DNA from: Pseudomonas fluvialis
GTDB taxonomy: Bacteria > Pseudomonadota > Gammaproteobacteria > Pseudomonadales > Pseudomonadaceae
Assembly (NCBI RefSeq): GCF_014207935.1
Contig: NZ_JACHLL010000004.1
Coordinates: forward strand, 248,001-312,000
Direction: 5' to 3'
DNA: 64,000 nucleotides
Below the pieces are notes generated by a model. That model saw nothing but the letters and a program-made list of their open reading frames with translations, had not been told where the DNA came from and ran no database searches. Shown here in pieces: positions 1 to 10,883 of this stretch. Within the stretch, counting starts at the first letter, position 1; every line of letters begins with the position of its first letter. The position numbers and the translations under genes were made by a program.

Positions 1-437
1 TTCGCAATGCTAAGTCTCCCAGACTTGCGCTTATCAACTAAGACACCATTGCGCCAGTCGGGTCGCAAAATCTGACTCTCAGTTGATGCACCTGCATCAA
101 GCAGCAGAAAAAGCTCAACACCAATTGCAGGCTCAGCCCCATCTGGAAGCGTCACCTTTGCGAGCAGTGCTGTTAGCTGTTTCGTGAACGTAAATCTCCG
201 TTTGGGACGCCCCTTTCCCTCCGGAGCAGCAGCCACAGAAAACAGAGCCTGCACCTCAAGCAGTTTGAGCGCCTTCGACACGCTGGAGAGCCTGACCCCG
301 AAGCGTTCGGCCAACTCCGTCGCCGTACTTACAAATCCACCCTCGGCCTGATGGCTCAGCAGCAACCTGACGAGCAGATATTTCCCCTCCGGCTCAAGGC
401 CTTTTACCTCACACAGCAAATACCGAACGACACTCAC
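1..437 (-). CDS. winged-helix DNA-binding protein, 3' end outside window
   Basis: The minus strand is open from a GTG at 437 to the window edge (about 145 residues), so the C-terminus is missing. The GTG is preceded by GAGGGA at a normal distance, and no ATG start is available because a nearby ATG meets a stop after two codons. Residues 15-75 look like a MarR/IclR-type winged helix: a helix with YLLVRLLLSH, then TATELAERFGVRLSSVSKAL as helix-turn-helix, then a basic wing (GKGRPKRRFTF). I do not recognise the family. The gene diverges from the gene at 554 across a 116-bp gap holding a promoter and a palindrome, so it may regulate that gene or itself. Confidence 0.6.
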   Translation of the reverse strand, partial: MSVVRYLLCEVKGLEPEGKYLLVRLLLSHQAEGGFVSTATELAERFGVRLSSVSKALKLLEVQALFSVAAAPEGKGRPKRRFTFTKQLTALLAKVTLPDGAEPAIGVELFLLLDAGASTESQILRPDWRNGVLVDKRKSGRLSIA

Positions 438-472
438 ACTAGTCCCTCAGCCACTCATGGGATACACCATAA

Positions 473-502
473 TTATCACAGCGAAATTACAGCCTGTATA
501 AT
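473..502 (+). promoter_or_regulatory. putative sigma-70 promoter for the gene at 554
   Basis: TTATCA at 473-478 and a perfect TATAAT at 497-502 are separated by 18 bp. Transcription would start near 509, giving a leader of about 45 nt that contains the palindrome at 512-523. Confidence 0.55.
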
Positions 503-511
503 TTCAATCTT

Positions 512-523
512 GTTACGCGTAAC
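512..523. promoter_or_regulatory. 12-bp perfect palindrome, candidate operator
   Basis: GTTACGCGTAAC is a perfect palindrome just downstream of the predicted start site. It is followed by a further GTAACG repeat to 529. The position suits a repressor, possibly one of the two flanking gene products. The binder is unknown. Confidence 0.45.
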
Positions 524-553
524 GTAACGAATAACAGATTTAAAGGTACAGAC

Positions 554-1300
554 ATGGCAAAGCGCAAGGTGGGCTTGGAGTGGCTAGACACGTCTGACGA
601 GCAGGCCGTCAATTGGGCCTACAACTACCTTCAGCAGCACGGCAAACCGGTACCCGGCAATCACGGACAAAGGAATGCAGAAACCCTGCTCAAGAAAGGC
701 CTCCGAATAGAGGAAGCAGTGGATGGACGTCAATTTCTCAGCACCATGAGAAATGCCTATCGTCAGCAGAAATGGCGCCTGACAAAACCCGGCCTGAAGA
801 ACAGGACATTTCGACTTCACACTCCTGTCGCAGCAAAACTGGACTCACTCGCAAAGCAAGAACGAGTTAGACCTACCGACCTAGTAGAAACACTGATTGC
901 TGAAACTGCCAAAGCCCATGCCGGAATTAGCAAGAAACTAAAAGAGTCAAAGGAGCGCGAAAATCGCGAGAAAGGCCACGCAAATCTTCGAGAGAAAGGC
1001 CTCAAGGCCTGCGTCACCGCACTTGAGGAAATGCTTTCCGACGCCCTCATGAGGATCAGCTACTACGAAACGGTCTGCGGCACCCCTACAGATGTGCACG
1101 GCCCCCTCAGCAGTCACTACCAACAGGCATGGTCCGAAGCACAGCAAAAGCTCAACGCCATTCGGAAGCAGCATGCAGGTCCACACAACCACAAAAGAGC
1201 ATTGGATCGTCCTGAACAAATGACACGCCCCAACCAACCACCCCCAAACGGGAATCAAGATGTGGGTCAACGTGTGGGTCAAAAGAATACCATCAAATAA
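554..1300 (+). CDS. hypothetical protein, possible ribbon-helix-helix DNA-binding
   Basis: This is a 248-residue soluble, basic protein with no signal peptide. Residues about 83-120 (TFRLHTPVAAKLDSLAKQ and the following PTDLVETLIAE) resemble a ribbon-helix-helix: a short strand, then two amphipathic helices. A charged coiled-coil-like stretch (KKLKESKERENREKG) follows, then a low-complexity Pro/Asn/Gln tail. I do not recognise the family. Its base composition is less GC-rich than the core genes further right. It has its own promoter and terminator and diverges from a winged-helix gene, an arrangement common in mobile-element maintenance or regulation modules. The start is supported by the leader and by the lack of a better upstream codon. 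Confidence 0.6.
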   Translation: MAKRKVGLEWLDTSDEQAVNWAYNYLQQHGKPVPGNHGQRNAETLLKKGLRIEEAVDGRQFLSTMRNAYRQQKWRLTKPGLKNRTFRLHTPVAAKLDSLAKQERVRPTDLVETLIAETAKAHAGISKKLKESKERENREKGHANLREKGLKACVTALEEMLSDALMRISYYETVCGTPTDVHGPLSSHYQQAWSEAQQKLNAIRKQHAGPHNHKRALDRPEQMTRPNQPPPNGNQDVGQRVGQKNTIK

Positions 1301-1330
1301 ATCCATTTAAATTCAAGCGGATAATCAAAT

Positions 1331-1358
1331 AAAAAACCGGCCACAAGCCGGCTTTTTT
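1331..1358 (+). terminator. rho-independent terminator
   Basis: Stem CCGGC/GCCGG, extended by A-T pairs, with loop CACAA and a run of six T. It lies 30 bp after the stop of the gene at 554. Confidence 0.8.
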
Positions 1359-1492
1359 ATTGCGCAAAAATCCACCCTACGTTGGTTTACCCATCTTTCA
1401 CAAAGCCTCATGACGAGGCACAGGACTAAACTTGTATGAAGAAAGGGACGGAGTGGGCAAGCTAGCGAGAGATTACTAAGTCAATGCAGCAC

Positions 1493-2089
1493 TCACGGGC
1501 AGAGGTAGTCAACCTGCGCGTAACTACGCCGAAACGGATCGGTCAGGTCATCGCTATAGTTGTCGAGCAACAGCCGCCGCTTGGGTAAAAGATGGGCGCG
1601 GAAGAAGCGACTGAAGCTAGCCAGGCGCTCCCCCCTGAGCGTCAGATGAACGCAGCCATTATCAATACGAATGGTTCCTGACTGGAGCTGCTCGGTCAAA
1701 CGTACGTCAACCAACCGATGCTCCTTCAGATACTCCTGCTTGAATACGTCCGAGAAGCGACTTTGCTGGATTCCGCCACCACGCTGCTGCAGCTTCTCGA
1801 GGATATAGAAGGACAGCGAGCGGTCGACCACCGTCGGCACTGAGATCGCAAGCGCATAGGCTGTCAGCAGCCATATGAGCACCATCTGCATCTTTTCGAA
1901 GGTTCCAAAGACGCTAAAAACGTGCATGCGCCAGATGGTTACGGCAGCAATCAGAGCGGCCAGAGCGCCATCGAGGAGCGCACTGTAGAACACCACATCG
2001 ACCCCAAAATAGGCGACATGTATCCAGTAGACCAAGCAAGCGAGTGCCACAAAGAACAGTGAAGCTACGAGAAAGCGCCAGGTCTTCAT
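1493..2089 (-). CDS. small membrane protein with C-terminal winged-helix-like region
   Basis: The 198-residue protein has three predicted membrane helices (about residues 6-24, 30-54 and 68-90), followed by a soluble tail. A conserved-looking VPTVVDRSLSFYIL segment follows the third helix. The tail (VRLTEQLQSGTIRIDNG, then VHLTLRGERLASFSRFF) has the strand-turn-helix pattern of a winged helix, but the sequence alone does not prove DNA binding. It is the last gene of a five-gene operon and overlaps gtrA by 4 bp (ATGA), so it is probably translationally coupled. Its role is unknown. From its partners it may be an accessory to lipid-linked sugar transfer. Confidence 0.7.
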   Translation of the reverse strand: MKTWRFLVASLFFVALACLVYWIHVAYFGVDVVFYSALLDGALAALIAAVTIWRMHVFSVFGTFEKMQMVLIWLLTAYALAISVPTVVDRSLSFYILEKLQQRGGGIQQSRFSDVFKQEYLKEHRLVDVRLTEQLQSGTIRIDNGCVHLTLRGERLASFSRFFRAHLLPKRRLLLDNYSDDLTDPFRRSYAQVDYLCP

Positions 2090-2481
2090 GCCGCCTTGAA
2101 AACCAGTAGTTTGTTGCCCAGGTAGCTCAGCACGGCCTGCATCATCACGGCCAGAAAGAGACCCACCGTGTAGTCCCGCTGCAGCTGATCCGTCCAGATG
2201 TAGAGCAATAGTCCGTGCAGACAGGCAATCACGGCATAGGACGCGAGAAAGCGCATGGCCTGGCTCACAAGAGCCCCCTCCGAATGCCGGAAGACGAAGA
2301 AACGACTACCAATGAAAGACGCCGCAATACCGAACCAAGCGGCAAAAAAATTGGCCAGACCGGCCGACGGCATTTCGAGCACCCGCAGATTGAAGCTCAG
2401 AACGGCGAAGTGAATCCCCGCGGCGAAAAGCCCGTTGAGGGCGAAGCGCACGATCTCCGCAACACGAAAATCAAGGTTCAT
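2086..2481 (-). CDS. GtrA-like membrane protein (lipid-linked sugar flippase family)
   Basis: The 131-residue protein has four hydrophobic helices, typical of the GtrA/PF04138 family. Members are thought to flip undecaprenyl-phosphate-linked sugars across the inner membrane or to help their transfer. Recognisable features are FALNGLFAAGIHFAVL at the start, FFAAWFGIAASFIGSRFFVF in the middle and SYLGNKLLVF at the end. The start at 2481 is chosen because its ATG overlaps the stop of the upstream glycosyltransferase (ATGA). A start five codons earlier is also possible. The neighbouring GtrB-like transferase supports the assignment, but the sugar is unknown. Confidence 0.8.
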   Translation of the reverse strand: MNLDFRVAEIVRFALNGLFAAGIHFAVLSFNLRVLEMPSAGLANFFAAWFGIAASFIGSRFFVFRHSEGALVSQAMRFLASYAVIACLHGLLLYIWTDQLQRDYTVGLFLAVMMQAVLSYLGNKLLVFKAA

Positions 2482-3446
2482 TGGCAATGCTGGCATATCG
2501 ACAGCGGACTGCTGTGCTCGACATAGTCGATAAACTGTGCATATGGCGAATGCGAAAGCCCACCAGACTTACTGACGCCAGTGAGCATGAGACTGATCAA
2601 TGCCAGGGATCCAGTCTGGAGGAAAACAACAAACAAGATTCCGAGCGCCACCGAAAACCACCCCGGAGTCGCGAAACCCGATACCTTGAGGACGATTGTT
2701 GCCAGACCCGCAACCACTGTCAGCCCACCGATCAGAGCTGAAGCAATTCCAACACGCACTAGCACATCTTCAGCGAAGACCATGACTCCGCGGAACCCGT
2801 GCAACGCAAGATCGACAAAACTCATCTTGCTCTGGCCGATATAACGCGGACCGCGATCGAGAGCACAAATACGGATTCGCAGTCGCGAACTCAACACGCA
2901 ACTGGCAACGTGGATCCACAGTTCCTGCATAGAGGTGAGCCGCCTGACAGCTGCCGGCTTGATTGCCATGAAGTTTCCAAAGCTGATCTGGCGCCCTGTC
3001 AAAACCTTGAATAGCGTTCTATAGAGAAAATAGAACGCTTTGAAGCGAAGAGTCTCGACGCGTGTCTTGCGCTGAGCAACGACCAAATCAACATCCGGAG
3101 CACTCAGTTCATTGAGCAATTCCGGAATCGAAGTAGGTAGATCCTCTCCGTCAGAATCCATGACCACGACCTGCGCCGTGCCCATATGTTCCGCTACGTA
3201 GCCGATACCTATCGCAATGGCTCGCTGGTGACCTACGTTGCGGCGCAAACGAATGACCGTACCGTTCAGCCCAACAGCACTCATCTTCGCCAGATCGACC
3301 GGTTGCTGCACAGAACCGTCATCAACCGCCACTACATAGACCTTCGCGCCAAAAGTCGCAGATAGCTCATCGAACAGGCGGGCAGATGCCTCGGCATCCT
3401 CAAAGACCGGAGTGACTACGACAAAGTCGGGGGAAATTGCGCACAT
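2478..3446 (-). CDS. GtrB/DPM1-like family 2 glycosyltransferase
   Basis: The 322-residue protein has an N-terminal GT-A domain (VVTPVFEDAEAS at 10-21, then VVAVDDGS and the metal-binding VVMDSDGED near 95-103). Two C-terminal membrane helices follow (about 230-300). This architecture is that of GtrB-type polyprenyl-phosphate glycosyltransferases, which move a sugar from a nucleotide donor to undecaprenyl phosphate at the cytoplasmic face. It would supply the lipid-linked sugar for the GtrA-like protein and for the large GT-C enzyme encoded upstream. It lies 78 bp after the UbiA-family gene and overlaps gtrA. The donor sugar cannot be read from the sequence. Confidence 0.85.
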   Translation of the reverse strand: MCAISPDFVVVTPVFEDAEASARLFDELSATFGAKVYVVAVDDGSVQQPVDLAKMSAVGLNGTVIRLRRNVGHQRAIAIGIGYVAEHMGTAQVVVMDSDGEDLPTSIPELLNELSAPDVDLVVAQRKTRVETLRFKAFYFLYRTLFKVLTGRQISFGNFMAIKPAAVRRLTSMQELWIHVASCVLSSRLRIRICALDRGPRYIGQSKMSFVDLALHGFRGVMVFAEDVLVRVGIASALIGGLTVVAGLATIVLKVSGFATPGWFSVALGILFVVFLQTGSLALISLMLTGVSKSGGLSHSPYAQFIDYVEHSSPLSICQHCQ

Positions 3447-3524
3447 GGCTTCAGGGCGTTCAGAGTTCAGGAGATGCTTACACTAGAGCGGAGAAAGCTG
3501 CGACGTACCTTGCTGGCACGCGGA

Positions 3525-4433
3525 CTAGCTCACCCTTTCTAACAAGACCGATCCGGCCAGCATGGTGCCAATAAGCCCATAGAGCAGTCTATAGATCTTC
3601 TGGTACTTGAGCAGGCTTTCGAAGCTGAGGCCGGCCCGCCAGGCCCGCAAGGATGCATGGAGGTGCAGCAGCAGGAACCCTACGACGAATACGAGCATGC
3701 GTGGCAGCAGGCCGGACAGAGCAAGGGCGATCAGCAGCGCATAGGCCCCAGTGAACAGGATAATGCCGGCCACAAAACTTTGCGCCCTACCAAAGGCAAC
3801 CGCATTGGTACGGATGCCATTGAGCCGATCCCCATCGTAACCGCGGGCTTCGTGCATAAGATGACCGGCCGCAAAGATCAGTCCGAAGAAACAGCCGATA
3901 ACAATACCCCGCTCATCAACGGCAGAAAAGGTTGCGTAGCCAAGCAGAAAGTGCAGCGTGCCGCCCACGAGATGAAGGCAGGAGCCCAGAACCGGACGCC
4001 CCTTCATATGAATCGAAGGGGCGGAATAGAGCGTGCTGAGAACCAGGATTGCAATCGCAAGGGTGAGCGAAACCGGCCCCAGCAACGAGAACAACAGAAG
4101 CGTCATGCCAAGTAGTGCGACCGCAAGAAATCCGACAGCGGCGCGGCTCACGCCCCTCGACGCAAACGTCTGCGCAGCGCGATGCGGATCCCGGAGATCG
4201 CCATCGATACCCGCCCAATCGTTTATCACAAACACATGCCCAACCAGACACAGACTTCCGAAAGCAAAGACGAAAGCCCTGATGCAGTCTTGAACAGACA
4301 AGGAACCGAGAGCCAGTAGCACTCCCATCAGCGGAGCCCCTTGCAGCACCAGCACTTCGTCGAAGCGGATTGAGGACAGCAGGCGTAGTAATTGTCGCAC
4401 CGACTGCGGACGAAGACCCGCCGTAGCGATCAT
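3525..4433 (-). CDS. UbiA-family prenyltransferase
   Basis: The 302-residue polytopic protein has about eight to nine membrane helices. Both Asp-rich Mg/diphosphate motifs of the UbiA superfamily are present: NDWAGIDGDLRDP near residues 71-83 and YDGDRLNGIRT near 198-208. Family members transfer a prenyl chain from a prenyl diphosphate to an aromatic ring, a glycerol-phosphate or a sugar phosphate. The ATG overlaps the stop of the large upstream gene (ATGA), so the two are likely coupled. It is not UbiA of ubiquinone synthesis by context, since no ubiC is present. With the DxDD-containing partner it may act in a meroterpenoid or modified-lipid pathway. The acceptor is unknown. Confidence 0.8.
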   Translation of the reverse strand: MIATAGLRPQSVRQLLRLLSSIRFDEVLVLQGAPLMGVLLALGSLSVQDCIRAFVFAFGSLCLVGHVFVINDWAGIDGDLRDPHRAAQTFASRGVSRAAVGFLAVALLGMTLLLFSLLGPVSLTLAIAILVLSTLYSAPSIHMKGRPVLGSCLHLVGGTLHFLLGYATFSAVDERGIVIGCFFGLIFAAGHLMHEARGYDGDRLNGIRTNAVAFGRAQSFVAGIILFTGAYALLIALALSGLLPRMLVFVVGFLLLHLHASLRAWRAGLSFESLLKYQKIYRLLYGLIGTMLAGSVLLERVS

Positions 4434-7207
4434 GGTTTGGCACTACCATTCTCGGAGTTCGGCACGCGCCCTCCAGCACCAGGCGATGCGGCAGACAGAG
4501 CACCCTCGTGCTCGTAATAAAGCCTGAGCCAGAGGGCATAGCCAAACGCCTCAGACCAGTAGTAACGGCTTACACTCGCACTCAGGTCATTGTGATAAAG
4601 CAGCGGCGGATTGCCTTTCAAGGACGCGAAGTTTTCAGCTGCCAGCTTACTCAGCAACAGCGTGATGGCCTTCGAGCGACTCTCGGTGAGATCATTCGCA
4701 GCTTCAAAGTGGCGTAGATGCCCAAGGAGTTCAAGCCATATGCCCTGGCCCGCGACCGTGGTCCGCAGCCGCGACTCAGGCAACTGCAACGGGCATCCCG
4801 CCTCGCTCACCTCATGCAAACGCAAAAGAACGATCGGCGGCGCCAAGCGGTAATAGACCCAGAGAGATTCGTCTGTCGAACGCTTCTGCAAAGCGGTACA
4901 CAACTCACGAGCGGCAGGCAGATCTACCTGGGCCAGCCACAGATAGACATGGAGCTGAATGCCAATATCGGGCGGATTAGGATCCTTCCCAGGATCGATG
5001 CATCTAAATTGCTCTCTTGGTGCAAGCCAAGTCTGATAGAGGCCATCCGAAGTACGGAACTGCTTTAGCGTCGACAGCGCTAGCGGTAGTAACGCCGAGT
5101 GAGGATTCGGCGCGATTCGCCAGGCGAGAGCCGTGTCGTCTGCATCGGGCGTAATCCTGCAACCCATCACACCCATCGTCGGCAGATCGGGGCGACCGTG
5201 ATAGCGAACGAGGCCATTTTCCTCGATCTGGTTTGTCAGAAACTTACGCGCCCGCACCATGGCGCCTGTTAGGCCAGCCTGCCGGGCTATCGGTTCCACC
5301 ACATCGATCAGAGCAGCGTTGATGAATATGTTCAGCTCCTGCCGTTGCGGCACGAACCGTGTTTCCTTGGAGAACTCGGTAAGCCAGTAACCGGCATGGC
5401 TCTGATGCTCAACGAGAAGCGAGACAGCACTTCGTGCGGCCTTCACTAGGCGGGAATCACTTTGGGTGACAATGAATCTGCGCTCGCCGAGCAGGCGTTG
5501 CTGGCCGCCGGAACGGTCTCGCACGAGCGCAGTCACCACATGCGCTCCAGGCGCTAGGTCGTCAGCGGGAAACTTCACTTGCCAACCGCCTGGATCCCGC
5601 GTGCCTAGCGCGCGCACAACGTCGGGACGTTCGAAGAAGACATCAGTACCGCCGACCACAACCTGACCATCCACCATCAGCGTGACATCCGACGGCGTGT
5701 GGCCATCCATAAGCGCCCAGCCGGCCACCACTAAGTGCCGACCACCGCCTTCGTCGCGCATTTCGGCAACGTCGATGTTCCCCTTAAGCTCACCGAAGTC
5801 GGGGGCGATTAGTCCATGCTTCAGCTCAGCGAGAAATGGGGTGTTGCCAATATCCCAAACCAACTGCTTCCATGTGTCACGAGTTATGAGCGGCCCCTTG
5901 GCCGCCACGGCCGATCCTAAGGCCTTGCCGGTGTAGCAAAAAGCTCCCACGCCCTGAATGACAACCGCAATGAGGCACGCCAAACCAAACACCGCGCGAC
6001 CGAGCGTGCGCAAGCGCTCGAAAACCGGAGACAGCATCCAAACGAGAATGGGTAGTGCCTCTGTGAGATACCGTGGCCCCCAACTTAGACCCTGCTCCCA
6101 ATGTGTCGCGCCGTAAAAAAGCAACTGCACCACCAAGGCGCCACCCGCCGCCAACGTGAGTCCCCGCGAACCCTGATCGCGCAACACAAATGGCAGGAAT
6201 AAAGGTACAAACAGCAAGAACGGAGAAAAGACGAAAAGCCCGTAAACCGGACTGAACAGCAGTACAGCAATTCCGTAGAGCGTATCCTCACCAAATTTCG
6301 AGACCCTGCTTTCAAGCGAGGGCATCAGGCCATAACCCCCGATGACATGACCTACCACGAACAGGTTGTAGGCCAGCGCAAGCCCAACTGGCACTGCAGC
6401 TGCAGCAAGAAACCAGATCAAGCGGGACCCGGCCCAGCGGATTGCATAAAGCGCAAAACCCGCAGCAAGGATGGCATCGGGCTGTCGATTGCAGGCCAGA
6501 AGCGCGCAAAAGAGACCTGCGCCGAGCGCCCGCAAAGGCGTACAAGGCCCGGTGAGCAAGTACAACATGGCGACAACCAGCAGTCCCGCAAGCCCATGCA
6601 TCCATAGAGCCTGACTGCTGATCACCCATGTCGTTGTACCCAACGCATACGCGATCGTAAGCAGTACGGCGGCATCAGGAGAGCTGCGCCGTCGCAGAAG
6701 CAGATAGAGAAGCATCGCCGACAACGACGCTAAGAAGGACGCACAGAGCTTCTCCATCACCCGAGCGACATAATCGACTCGTAGTGGCTCCCAACCCATT
6801 TCATCGAGATAGGCTACTGCCGGCAGGTACAACGGCGCGACAATCACGGGGGTCACAACGGGGTATAGCGAGACGATTCCGCCTGCAGGGTTCTTGATCA
6901 TCCAGAACGCGGCGGTCGATTGGCTTTTCCCGGTTGGAACCTCCCTGCCCTGCGCCACCAGTAGTGCAATCGGGTCCAACGTCAAACTATGGTGCTTCCA
7001 GATCGACAACGGAAGGTAGCGAGCCGGATACGTATCGCCAGCGCCGATGGTTCTCTGATTGGCGTTGTAAATCAGGAAAAAGGAAAGCCCAAGCAGCAGG
7101 CAGACCGCACAATCCCAACGCCATGAGCCATGCAAGGGGTTCGATACAGTTCCCGAGCCCGAAAAGCGTGCCCGCCACTTGCCAAAGGCGACCTTACTGG
7201 CCTGCAT
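4430..7207 (-). CDS. GT-C glycosyltransferase fused to beta-sandwich and DxDD alpha-toroid domain
   Basis: This 925-residue protein has three parts. Residues about 30-430 form a polytopic membrane domain like GT-C dolichyl/undecaprenyl-phosphate-sugar-dependent transferases, with an Asp in the first extracytoplasmic loop (GDTYPARYLPL near 57-67). Residues about 477-583 look like a small beta-sandwich (VAGWALMDG, FFERPDVV). Residues about 586-905 resemble a terpene-cyclase/prenyltransferase alpha-toroid, with a QW-like EHQSHAGYW and DADDTALAWR at 688-697. The latter resembles the catalytic DxDDTA of class II terpene cyclases. The start at 7207 has GGAG upstream; an ORF extension to 7336 adds 43 residues without a clear ribosome site. 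First gene of the operon. The domain reading is solid in outline. Catalysis is inference. Confidence 0.65.
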   Translation of the reverse strand: MQASKVAFGKWRARFSGSGTVSNPLHGSWRWDCAVCLLLGLSFFLIYNANQRTIGAGDTYPARYLPLSIWKHHSLTLDPIALLVAQGREVPTGKSQSTAAFWMIKNPAGGIVSLYPVVTPVIVAPLYLPAVAYLDEMGWEPLRVDYVARVMEKLCASFLASLSAMLLYLLLRRRSSPDAAVLLTIAYALGTTTWVISSQALWMHGLAGLLVVAMLYLLTGPCTPLRALGAGLFCALLACNRQPDAILAAGFALYAIRWAGSRLIWFLAAAAVPVGLALAYNLFVVGHVIGGYGLMPSLESRVSKFGEDTLYGIAVLLFSPVYGLFVFSPFLLFVPLFLPFVLRDQGSRGLTLAAGGALVVQLLFYGATHWEQGLSWGPRYLTEALPILVWMLSPVFERLRTLGRAVFGLACLIAVVIQGVGAFCYTGKALGSAVAAKGPLITRDTWKQLVWDIGNTPFLAELKHGLIAPDFGELKGNIDVAEMRDEGGGRHLVVAGWALMDGHTPSDVTLMVDGQVVVGGTDVFFERPDVVRALGTRDPGGWQVKFPADDLAPGAHVVTALVRDRSGGQQRLLGERRFIVTQSDSRLVKAARSAVSLLVEHQSHAGYWLTEFSKETRFVPQRQELNIFINAALIDVVEPIARQAGLTGAMVRARKFLTNQIEENGLVRYHGRPDLPTMGVMGCRITPDADDTALAWRIAPNPHSALLPLALSTLKQFRTSDGLYQTWLAPREQFRCIDPGKDPNPPDIGIQLHVYLWLAQVDLPAARELCTALQKRSTDESLWVYYRLAPPIVLLRLHEVSEAGCPLQLPESRLRTTVAGQGIWLELLGHLRHFEAANDLTESRSKAITLLLSKLAAENFASLKGNPPLLYHNDLSASVSRYYWSEAFGYALWLRLYYEHEGALSAASPGAGGRVPNSENGSAKP

Positions 7208-7608
7208 ACGACTCCAAGGACTGTTTAGAAAAGAGAGGTTGCTACACCATCTTGAATGTCGAGGGCCAATGAATAAACTCGCGCCTGTCACGCTAACGCC
7301 TAGCCACAACGAGCCCTGTGAGCGCATCGCACCCATGCGCTGCGAGTATAACTACGATGCTGAGCAGGAGTCTTGGCTCTCAGCGCGTGCTCAGCCCGGC
7401 ATTTAATCATGCACATCATCTAGATGTCGGCAATCAACACGCATGCGTACGACCCACAGCTCCTCATGCAAAAGAATAAAGCCACAGTGCTCATAGCTCC
7501 TACCCAAACACCGCATTTTTATTGTCCGTTACTTTGTCCGATCTTCGCGCAATTCCCCGTACGACTACAGTGGGTTAAGGTACACACTGACCTCCGTGGA
7601 GCGGCAGG
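7208..7608. other. 400-bp divergent intergenic region
   Basis: It separates the minus-strand glycosylation operon from the plus-strand solute-binding-protein gene and should carry promoters for both. I see no convincing -35/-10 pair, no hairpin and no RNA gene. Part of it (to 7336) is open in frame with the upstream operon and could be coding if that start is used. Its base composition is lower in GC than the genes to its right. Confidence 0.4.
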
Positions 7609-8544
7609 ATGCCTCGTTTAGCTGTTATAGCCCTGATCCTCGGCCTGCTGGTGGGCTGTAGCGAACCGGACGATACCGTGCGTATTGGCGCCAATCGCTG
7701 GCTCGGCTATGCCCCGCTGTACCTGGCCGACGACCTCGGTTGGATGCAGCAAAGTCATCTGCGCCTGGTCGAGTACCCCCACACCACCGGCGTGCTGCGT
7801 GGTTACCGCAACGGCCTGCTGGACGCCGCCCTGCTGACCCTCGACGAAGCGCTGATTCTGCAAAGCAGTGGCCTGCCGGTGCAGATTCTGCTGGTAGCCG
7901 ATGTCTCGGCCGGGGCCGATGTGCTCTTCGCCAAAAGCTCAATCAAGCAATTGGAACAACTGCGCGGCCAGCGCATTGGTGTGGAAAAGAGCGCGCTGGG
8001 CGCCTACTTCCTCTCACGCATCCTCGATCTGGCCAAGCTCAACCGCACCGATGTAAAGGTGCTCGACATGCCGATCAACGAACATCTGGCCGCCCTGCAA
8101 AGCGGCCAGATTGATGCAGCGATCAACTTTGCCTCGGCCAGCCTGGACTTCGCCGCACTGCAGGCTTTGCCCCTGCTGGACAGCCGTGCACTGCCCAATG
8201 AAATCATCGATGTACTGGTGATCAACCCGCAGAGTGTCGATGTCGAACAGGCGGCACGCCTGCGCGCGCTGTGGTTCACCAGCCTCAAGGAATGGCAGCA
8301 GCAACGCGCCGGCCATGATCAGCGCGTGGAACGCCGGCTGGGACTGAGCCCGAACGAACTGGAGGTGACCCTGGCCGGCCTGCAGATGGGCGACGCCACC
8401 TTCAATGAGCAATTAATCAAGGATGGCGTACTGCAACAGAGCATGCAGCGCCTCAATCAGTACCTGTTCAGCCGCCAGCTGCAGGGTAAACCGGCGAATA
8501 TCCGCCAGATGCTGCCCGGCAGCTGTCAGGGGGATGCATGCTGA
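7609..8544 (+). CDS. lipoprotein solute-binding protein, NMT1/SsuA-like
   Basis: The 311-residue protein starts with a lipoprotein signal (LILGLLVGCSE, lipobox Cys near residue 17). The periplasmic binding fold of the NMT1/THI5/SsuA group follows: VRIGANRWLGYAPLYLADDLGW at the start, then a substrate-like VLRGYRNGLLDAALLTLDEA, and LRGQRIGVEKSALGAYFL. Such proteins bind small organic ligands. No ABC permease or ATPase gene lies nearby. The gene overlaps the downstream GGDEF/EAL gene by 7 bp, so it more likely serves as the ligand-sensing partner of that enzyme than as a transporter subunit. GGAG lies 8 nt upstream of the ATG. The ligand is unknown. Confidence 0.85.
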   Translation: MPRLAVIALILGLLVGCSEPDDTVRIGANRWLGYAPLYLADDLGWMQQSHLRLVEYPHTTGVLRGYRNGLLDAALLTLDEALILQSSGLPVQILLVADVSAGADVLFAKSSIKQLEQLRGQRIGVEKSALGAYFLSRILDLAKLNRTDVKVLDMPINEHLAALQSGQIDAAINFASASLDFAALQALPLLDSRALPNEIIDVLVINPQSVDVEQAARLRALWFTSLKEWQQQRAGHDQRVERRLGLSPNELEVTLAGLQMGDATFNEQLIKDGVLQQSMQRLNQYLFSRQLQGKPANIRQMLPGSCQGDAC

Positions 8545-10883
8545 CCAAACTGTCGCTGCGCCGCTCTCTGCCCCTGCTGCTCGGCCTGTTCGCCCTGCTC
8601 TTCAGCCTGTTGCTGCTGAGCATCGAACTACCCCTGCGCAGCAGCGCCGAGTTGCACAACTGGCGCCAGCACAGCGAACAGACCCTGGCGCTGCTGCAGA
8701 GCAGTCTGGCCGACCACCTGCGCCAGGGGCGCAGCGAAGAACTGCAGACCGAGTTGGCCGATTTGGGCAGCCTGGCCAATGTACGCTGGGCGGTGGTGAT
8801 CGACGCCGAGCAACGAATCATCGCCGCCACCCGCCTCGGTCTTGAGCTGACCAGCCTGACTGGCCTCAGCCACACCGACTTGGCCCGTCACAGCGCCAGC
8901 ACCAAGGCCCATTGGCTCGCCGAGGGCGGCGAACGTTTTCTCGCGCTCTATCCGCTCGACCGCCAGGGCAGTCATATGCTGCTGGTCAGCTTCGACTTTT
9001 CCGAGCAGTTGCTGCTGACCCGACACAACACCTGGCTGTTCATCGGCGAAGTCCTGCTTCTGCTGCTCACTCTCGGCCTGGTCCTCAACGCCCTCTACCA
9101 CCTGTTGGTGACCCGCCGGCTGGCCGCCATCGAGCAGGCCACCCAGCGCTTTACCCACGGAGCCCAGGACGCCCATGCCGAGATTTCCGGCAGCGACGAG
9201 ATTAGCCAGCTGGCCAGCAGCTTCAACCTGATGTTCGAGCAACTGCAGCGCCAGCAGCACAACCTGCGCGAGAGCCAGAAGCTGCTGAGCACACTGATCG
9301 ACACAGCGCCCATTGGCATGATGGTGGTCGACCACGAGCTGCGCGTGGAACAGGCCAATCCGGCCGCGGCCAAGCTATTCTCCTGCACGCCACAGGACCT
9401 GCAAGGCAACCTGCCGCAGGACCGTCTACTCGAAGGCGGCTGCTGGGAGCGCCTGATCCAGGCCCCAGCCAGCAGCAACCTGGAGTTCACCACGTTGCGC
9501 AACGGCCATGAGATTGCCGTGGAAATCTCCATGACCCCGTTCCAGCGCGAGGGCGAACGGCATTATCTGGTGCTGTTGCGCGACATCAGCGACCGCAAGC
9601 TGGCCGAACAGCGCCTGCGCTTCCTCGCCCACTTCGACCCGCTGACCCAGCTGGCCAACCGTCATCAACTGCAGCAGCGCCTGGAACAACTGCTCGCCGC
9701 CGGCAGCCGCCTGGCCCTGCTGTTCCTTGATATCGACCACTTCAAGCGCATCAACGACATCCACGGCCACGAGCTAGGCGACCGCCTGCTGATAGAAATT
9801 GCCGAGCGTCTCAAGCCCCTGATGCCCCCTCACTGCCTGTTCGGCCGCAGTGGCGGCGACGAATTCGTCTGCCTGCTCGAAGGCGCTGAGCGCGGCAGCG
9901 CCGAGACTCTCGGCGAAGCGCTTCTGGCCGCCTTCAAGGCGCCCTTCCAGGTGCGCCAATACCATTTCAACATCACTCCGAGCATCGGCCTGACCCTGCA
10001 CGGCGGCCACCCCAGCAGCGCCAGCGAACTGCTCAAGCAAGCCGACCTGGCCCTTTATGCGGCGAAGGATGGCGGGCGCAACAACATGGCGCTGTACAGC
10101 CCTCGACTGAGCGAAGCCACCGAGTTACGGCAGATGCTCGAAGCCGAATTGCGTCTGGCCATCCAGCGCGACGAGTTCGAGCTGTTCTACCAGCCTCAGG
10201 TCGACCCCACCGGCAAGCCACTGGCCATGGAAGCCTTGCTGCGCTGGCACTCGCCCAATCGCGGCCTGGTCGCGCCCAACGACTTCATTCCGGTGCTGGA
10301 AGACAGCGGGCTGATCCTCGAAACCACGCCGAAGATCGTGCGCATGGCCTGTCGCCAGGTACGCCAATGGCGCCTGGCCGGTCTCGACCTGCGCGTAGCC
10401 ATCAATCTGTCGCCACTGGATTTCAGCCAGGATGATCTGGCCGGACGTCTGCTGGCGATTCTCACCGAAGAACAGGTCAGCCCCGACTGGCTGGAGCTGG
10501 AAGTCACCGAAAGCGCCCTGCTCAGCGATGGACCGGCGGTGCGAGACAGCCTGGCACGCCTGAAGCAGGCCGGTCTGCCGCTGCTGCTGGATGACTTCGG
10601 CACCGGCTACGCCTCGCTGACCTACCTGCAGCAGTTCCACTTCGACGGCATCAAGATCGATCGGCAGTTCGTCGCCGACCTGCCGGACAGTACGCAGTCG
10701 GTCGCCCTCGTTCGAGGGATTCTGACCATGGCAGCGCAACTGGGCGTGGAAGTGATCGCCGAAGGCGTGGAAAACGAGCGGCAGGCGGCCTTCCTTCTGC
10801 TCAACGGCTGCCAGCGCCTGCAGGGCTATTACTATGGTCGCCCACAACCGGCGCTGATGGTCAACGCGGCCAGCCAGGCCTGA
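8538..10883 (+). CDS. membrane sensor with HAMP, PAS, GGDEF and EAL domains
   Basis: The 781-residue protein has a membrane helix at 10-30, a periplasmic segment to about 163, a second helix to about 188, HAMP to about 240, PAS about 250-345, GGDEF about 350-510 and EAL about 525-775. The GGDEF signature is intact ([12 protein letters not shown]). EAL residues also look intact ([39 protein letters not shown]). The enzyme could therefore make and/or degrade c-di-GMP. The 7-bp overlap with the solute-binding lipoprotein gene suggests that ligand-loaded lipoprotein contacts its periplasmic segment, as in the NspS-MbaA pair of Vibrio cholerae. Which activity dominates cannot be told from sequence. 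Confidence 0.9.

Follow-up and report, generated by a model that had tools for sequence, protein, structure and literature searches.

The 64,000-nucleotide window analysed here (Pseudomonas fluvialis, assembly GCF_014207935.1, contig NZ_JACHLL010000004.1, positions 248,001 to 312,000) carries on its minus strand, from 7207 to 1493, an operon of five genes, g1 to g5, whose first two members form a conserved pair: g1 encodes a GT-C glycosyltransferase that continues into a beta-rich domain and a toroid with a DxDD motif, and g2 encodes a UbiA-family membrane protein. The architecture is real and conserved, and full-text searches of open-licence PMC papers found no paper on a GT-C-toroid protein combined with UbiA. 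For the fused toroid region, a class II terpene cyclase fold is predicted, and the rare operon suggests an undescribed terpene decoration of cell-surface sugars or lipids. The five-gene content that the original prediction had read from the sequence (GT-C-DxDD fusion, UbiA, GtrB-like and GtrA-like proteins, small membrane protein) is borne out, with open reading frames (ORFs), family matches and structure models in agreement. All positions are those of the window unless a locus is named, and all features listed lie on the minus strand.

Distribution of the two-gene core

Homologs of g1 are sparse in genome samples: they were found in two of 99 genomes of the genus (the source genome and G013, at 68% identity) and in three of 398 genomes sampled from the phylum (the source genome, G250 at 45%, and G387 with a weak match of 95 residues). 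A scan of contigs with patterns taken only from the toroid recovered 28 named loci (L009 to L036), 18 of them in metagenome-assembled genomes; they come from Pseudomonas PDM15 and PDM16, Mesorhizobium, Acidovorax, Tahibacter and other Proteobacteria, from Acidobacteriota including Bryobacterales, and from Akkermansiaceae, Phragmitibacter and a Geobacteraceae bin, together presumably about four phyla. L010 is probably the locus already matched in G013, and L032 that of G250. Counts over 29 loci comprise these 28 and the window.

A UbiA homolog adjoins the toroid gene in all 28 named loci by BLASTP, downstream on the same strand in 27 and convergent in L022; in L027 its reading frame is broken. 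The GT-C part was recognised in 27 of the 28 (L015 is cut by the contig end), and in L014 (7454-11020) the membrane protein fused to the toroid shows no sequence relationship to the usual GT-C part (hhalign 0.3%), with UbiA still adjacent. In reciprocal profile searches of the 398 phylum genomes, which scored at most five candidates in each, the toroid profile matched the source genome and G250 strongly (<1e-100) and two others weakly (9.7e-5 and 3.0e-4); at E<=1e-20, the UbiA-subfamily profile matched only the same two genomes, the source and G250. The genes are linked and not scattered, and the constant core consists of two genes, the toroid protein and UbiA.

The larger unit did not hold up as originally proposed. 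PDM15 and PDM16 share the order of the window, and together with it they are the only loci with GtrA and the complete five-gene order; elsewhere only the toroid-UbiA core is constant, and g5 is present in 5/29. A conserved five-gene unit was rejected, as BLASTP found no GtrA in the fetched loci outside Pseudomonas; PF04138 matches do occur in 22 of 25 genomes outside Pseudomonas, counted per genome without mapping to the loci and with L034, L015 and L026 not covered. No toroid match was obtained among 72,556 plasmid records. In L022 (7670-11930) the UbiA protein is nearest to that of L028 (81%) and the toroid to that of L016 (78%), a pattern that partner exchange and chimeric assembly would produce indistinguishably.

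Predicted structure and conserved residues of the core proteins

The g1 protein (4430..7207, 925 aa; the frame is open to 7336, giving an ORF of 968 aa at 4430-7336, and the start at 7207 chosen in the original prediction fits the G013 homolog) matched no Pfam family at E<=1. Its toroid, residues 581-904 (4496..5467), was modelled alone with a predicted local distance difference test score (pLDDT) of 93.3 and a predicted template modelling score (pTM) of 0.92. Among the 50 entries listed in the fold comparison, the best match was the HAD-linked terpene cyclase AsDMS (Z 23.9, root-mean-square deviation 3.6, 285 residues aligned); AsDMS/drimenol synthase entries scored Z 23-24, MstE 19.4 and SHC 17-19, and within the whole-protein model residues 581-901 again matched AsDMS (Z 23.5). 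The DADD motif (5135..5146, residues 731-734 of the 968-aa ORF) has D731, D733 and D734 in 29/29 toroids, an invariance that is partly selected since one of the two scan patterns contains PDAD; the following Thr735 is likewise invariant. The sequence WVYY (4850..4861, ORF residues 826-829) is conserved in 29/29 at every position, W826, V827, Y828 and Y829. AsDMS depends on D331, D333 and Y427, according to PMC12365925 and PMC9128629. The middle Asp and the Tyr are 95-96 residues apart here and 94 in AsDMS (PMC12365925), and WVYY is a candidate counterpart of AsDMS Tyr427 by this sequence spacing only. The DxDD motif noted originally is present in 29/29 toroids, in a region that the model folds like a class II terpene cyclase.

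Sequence searches with the toroid were uninformative: the best Pfam match of the 29 members was a TPR family at E 0.042, and the best PDB sequence match of the profile had E 0.5. Two remote stand-alone DxDD toroids from the phylum search align to the toroid profile at 95% (E 2.5e-8) and 91% (1.2e-6), DxDD over DxDD, and one of them (L052 in the SHC comparison) matches SHC at 3.4e-7 overall, a score summed over several weak repeats; these proteins may weakly bridge part of the sequence gap to SHC. The two stand-alone toroid proteins lie in L055 (7713-8588) and L056 (7252-8481). That of L056 adjoins cytochrome P450 and GT4 genes, and the tested neighbors in L055 match no Pfam family; the two neighborhoods (13.8 and 16.0 kb) contained no relative of the operon's UbiA, GT2, GtrA, GT-C or g5 proteins by BLASTP at E<=0.1 against non-overlapping ORFs of at least 120 aa, a search that would miss a distant UbiA.

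The membrane part of g1 (residues 28-441 of 925; 5885..7126) resembles the Leptospira LA_3751/LA_3752 glycosyltransferase family (NCBIfam 2.6e-14; 53 of 200 bits, below cut-off). The whole-protein model (pLDDT 86.7) has a pTM of 0.67, and its domain placement was therefore not used. Model residues 34-572 match ALG12 best (Z 24.8 over 343 residues), followed by OST (Z 21), ArnT (20.5) and the arabinosyltransferase AftB (19.5). Asp58, the conserved acidic residue of the predicted first extracytoplasmic loop, is invariant in 27/27 alignment rows. Mean net charges of the loops at 172, 218, 258, 338 and 396 are +2.6, +1.4, +1.7, +2.1 and +2.0, and of those at 239, 286, 368 and 424 they are 0.0, -0.2, +0.9 and -0.7; the N-terminus carries +0.9, so that the loop at 368 does not stand out from it as more negative, and a turn at 318, read as re-entrant, carries +0.8. 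With helices assigned by reading predictions, 11 transmembrane helices are predicted, with the C-terminal domains, including the toroid, on the periplasmic side. The GT-C part is a putative user of a polyprenyl-phosphate donor. The beta-rich domain that follows (residues 474-580; 5468..5788, delimited by predicted secondary structure) is putatively of the immunoglobulin (Ig) or carbohydrate-binding module (CBM) type.

The g2 protein (3525..4433, 302 aa) belongs to the UbiA superfamily (PF01040, 1.2e-22). Its first motif, NDWAGIDGD (4197..4223), is of the form NDxxGxxxD, with N71, D72, G75 and D79 in 29/29 UbiA copies, and in profile comparison it faces NDIFDIEID of DGGGP synthase. In the second motif region, EARGYDGD (3828..3851), E195 and D202 are found in 28/28 copies (L027 has a gap), and residue 198 is Asp in 23/28 and Gly in 5/28; the motif is of the RDYEGD type in most loci. 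A PDB search placed the UbiA profile nearest to prenyltransferases (4tq3, 4.2e-8; DGGGP synthase 6m31, 7.8e-6).

Accompanying genes and genomic context

The g3 gene (2478..3446) encodes a GtrB-like GT2 protein, a probable polyprenyl-phosphate-sugar synthase (PF00535, 1.1e-12; PHROG 841 'GtrB-like', 4.7e-23), and g4 (2086..2481, alternative start 2496) a candidate flippase of the GtrA family (PF04138, 4.4e-16). The small membrane protein g5 (1493..2089) had only non-significant Pfam matches (best 0.073); it is a member of a small family of membrane proteins that accompanies the g3-type GT2 in the window, PDM15, PDM16, L020 and L025. A GT2 of the AglJ/PpgS/ArnC type (polyprenyl-phosphate sugar synthases) lies within 1 kb or overlaps in 18/29 loci, an assignment based on six tested representatives with scores below curated cut-offs; weak or distant matches raise the count to 23/29, with a model built from the same clusters.

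The module is often found among surface-glycan genes. A cluster of large proteins, four tested members of which carry GT4-type domains, occurs in 21/29 loci, and GMD-like dehydratases (two tested) in 8/29; in PDM15, the fetched 21 kb also contain ABC-2 export, FkbM-type methyltransferase and sulfotransferase genes. A link to hopanoids was considered and rejected, as the window genome has no PF13243 match at E<=0.001.

Adjacent genes of the operon are tightly packed: g1 and g2 overlap by 4 bp, g2 and g3 are separated by 78 bp, g3 and g4 overlap by 19 bp (4 bp if the internal ATG at 2481 is used), and g4 and g5 overlap by 4 bp. The 4-bp overlaps originally described at three junctions are correct with the start choices made there, which place the g4 start at 2481, over the end of g3. 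Downstream of g5, a terminator-like hairpin (1331..1357) has a 12-pair stem and a T-rich tail at 1357-1331; since 16 terminator-like sites occur in 7 kb against 9.1 +/- 3.1 in shuffled sequence, the hairpin is weak evidence, and promoter-like sites number 2 against 3.1 +/- 2.1. That the operon is more than a chance arrangement follows from PDM15 (L009) and PDM16 (L010), where all five genes recur in identical order. Within the region 1-8000, the operon and its left flank have a guanine-plus-cytosine content of 50-59%, compared to 63-67% at 8-12 kb, and the genes to the left resemble, by eye, those of mobile elements; given this contrast and these neighbors, the operon may have been acquired. 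The divergent neighbors at 7609-10883 look ordinary; judged by eye, one resembles a substrate-binding lipoprotein and the other a GGDEF/EAL protein.

Possible functions and relation to known systems

Bacterial surface glycans carry many different sugars and small groups; to our knowledge, no class is known in which terpenes are added or cyclised on the periplasmic side. The combination of GT2, GtrA and GT-C proteins already amounts to a Gtr-type pathway, and the constant UbiA-toroid pair should therefore add something else. The reading favored here, tentatively and at somewhat less than an even chance, is that Gtr-type extracytoplasmic glycosylation has been extended by prenylation and periplasmic terpene cyclisation; it is preferred because the toroid, by fold and motif, suggests isoprenoid chemistry and the UbiA profile lies nearest to prenyltransferases. 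In this scheme the cytoplasmic step, loading of a sugar onto undecaprenyl phosphate, would fall to g3, and g4 would flip the charged carrier; the UbiA protein would attach an isoprenyl chain to some acceptor in the membrane; the GT-C domain would move the sugar, on the periplasmic side, onto the prenylated acceptor or a glycan carrying it; and Asp733 of the toroid, aided by Tyr828 or Tyr829, would protonate the far end of the prenyl group and cyclise the chain, a reaction that MstE carries out on prenylated dihydroxybenzoates. The operon would then yield either a terpenoid lipid, cyclised and glycosylated, or a surface glycan bearing terpenes. The bolder proposition is a terpenoid-glycan pathway outside the cytoplasm, found across distant phyla, in which the toroid works in the periplasm as a class II cyclase and, with UbiA, adds a terpene to a lipid or surface polysaccharide and cyclises it; about this possibility we are more doubtful than convinced.

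The link to UbiA in 28/28 loci, which were found by toroid patterns alone, counts in favor of prenylation and cyclisation, as do its persistence in L014 and the agreement of the reciprocal searches. Also in favor, toroid and UbiA distances are correlated across 27 loci (L010 and L027 left out; Mantel r 0.83, reached in 0 of 2000 permutations), a correlation that common descent alone would also yield. Several observations weigh against that reading. The loci are relatives, so that 28/28 does not represent 28 independent events, and 18 of the 28 are metagenome-assembled genomes. Class II cyclases outside the AsDMS/MstE/SHC group score Z 15-17 against the toroid, barely above the best sugar-acting toroids (15.2). 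Direct hhalign comparison with SHC C-domains gave 3%, the DxDD motifs not being aligned; the best single segment of the L052-SHC match (i-E 0.0086) lacks DxDD, and the segment in which PDMDDTA faces PDVDDTA of SHC contributes 2.8 bits. The invariant polar residues E667, N669, R711, H713, D790, H915 and D917 are more numerous than expected for a greasy cyclase cavity. No prenyl-chain synthase or aromatic-acceptor pathway appears among the 25 commonest of 93 neighbor Pfam families (survey of 120 ORFs out of 147 chosen). On the UbiA side, Gly replaces the middle Asp of the canonical NDxxDxxxD in 29/29 copies, and Gly198 in the window and four other loci departs from the canonical second motif DxxxD. 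Because of the Gly in motif 1, ordinary prenyl transfer by UbiA is not assured. A role of the toroid as a protonating isoprenoid cyclase is putative, and we know of no precedent for a class II cyclase in the periplasm.

Sugar chemistry offers the nearest competitor, which we consider unlikely but deserving of attention: the operon could be a variant of the pentofuranose three-component systems, in which UbiA produces a sugar bound to a polyprenyl carrier, in the way of PPPRS/DPPRS with phosphoribosyl pyrophosphate as their substrate, the product is flipped, and GT-C passes the sugar on to a surface glycan, with the beta domain and toroid binding or trimming the acceptor glycan and DxDD serving as a sugar-contact motif. 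The GT136 protein ORF12 has 11 transmembrane helices followed by a periplasmic Ig-like CBM and works with a donor synthase of the UbiA family (PMC11127046); g1 has a similar layout, its GT-C part also matches AftB, the neighboring genes are glycan genes, and the many polar invariant residues, the sugar-acting toroids reaching Z 15.2 and the GH76 enzyme ranking first for the whole g1 model in Foldseek are further points in favor of this variant. N71, D72 and D79 of g2 occupy the positions of PPPRS N247, D248 and D255; D251, however, corresponds to Gly75 in 29/29 copies, which is not decisive, since the D251A variant was inactive in vitro and kept some activity in vivo (PMC11127046). Other evidence argues against this variant: g2 scored 21 bits with the DPPRS model (residues 26-138 only) versus 58 with a prenyltransferase model, both below cut-off; no DPPRS chain was retrieved at E<=10 in the PDB search with the UbiA profile; and none of the five genes, to which the search was limited, carries a PRP or MATE family. 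A GT2 donor synthase candidate is present in 18/29 loci, so that UbiA need not make the sugar donor. The presence of the toroid itself also speaks against the variant, and in the fold comparison the Z score of AsDMS exceeds that of the best sugar toroid by about 9 units.

The toroid could also be a catalytically silent domain that binds lipid: UbiA would make a polyprenyl or terpenoid acceptor, and the toroid would offer it to the GT-C part. Its predicted periplasmic position, its persistent link to UbiA in L014 despite a different membrane partner, and polar invariant residues that could hold a head group agree with this; we nevertheless regard it as improbable, since a passive binder would hardly need D731, D733, D734, T735 and WVYY in 29/29 copies. 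Least credible, and very improbable in our judgment, is that UbiA itself acts as a terpene synthase within the membrane and that the two proteins together form a cyclic terpene in two steps, with no prenyl transfer involved; UbiA-type enzymes of this kind are reported from fungi (PMC9835599) and motif 1 of g2 deviates, but nothing in the sequence is specific for such an activity.

Prenylation followed by cyclisation thus remains the preferred reading, and the two-gene core provides a testable handle, with one domain, one motif and one partner. If the toroid is active, bacterial envelopes would contain a novel kind of molecule, and a cyclase anchored in the membrane would operate outside the cytoplasm; if it is inactive, a cyclase fold would have been re-employed to recognise glycans or lipids. 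In both cases, two families of proteins that lack a described function acquire a defined context.

Compared to gtrABC O-antigen glucosylation clusters, the operon likewise unites a GtrA family protein, a GtrB-like GT2 and a GT-C enzyme; what it has in addition is a UbiA protein and, fused to a GT-C protein that lacks a Pfam match, a DxDD toroid. The original statement that such clusters carry no UbiA holds for gtrABC, but extracytoplasmic glycosylation with a UbiA-family protein and GT-C has already been published for pentofuranose three-component systems (ORF15 PPPRS, MATE and GT136) and for mycobacterial arabinan synthesis (PMC11127046). The pentofuranose systems share with the operon the UbiA-family protein, the GT-C enzyme with 11 helices and a periplasmic beta domain, and the polysaccharide context; here, a toroid is added, GtrA stands in for MATE, a PRP phosphatase domain is lacking, and UbiA is nearest to prenyltransferases. 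With AsDMS, the HAD-TCbeta drimenol synthase for which PMC12365925 gives a similar Asp-Tyr spacing, and with the monodomain cyclase MstE, the g1 toroid has its fold and DxDD-type motif in common; it differs in its fusion to a membrane GT-C part, its predicted periplasmic location, its 11-15% identity and its extra polar invariant residues. The UbiA-family prenyltransferases (4tq3, DGGGP synthase, chlorophyll synthase) share a family-wide sequence match with g2, which has NDxxGxxxD for NDxxDxxxD and, in the window lineage, Gly for Asp198. On balance, the system is classed as a variant of extracytoplasmic (Gtr/three-component) glycosylation, and not as a proven terpene cyclase.

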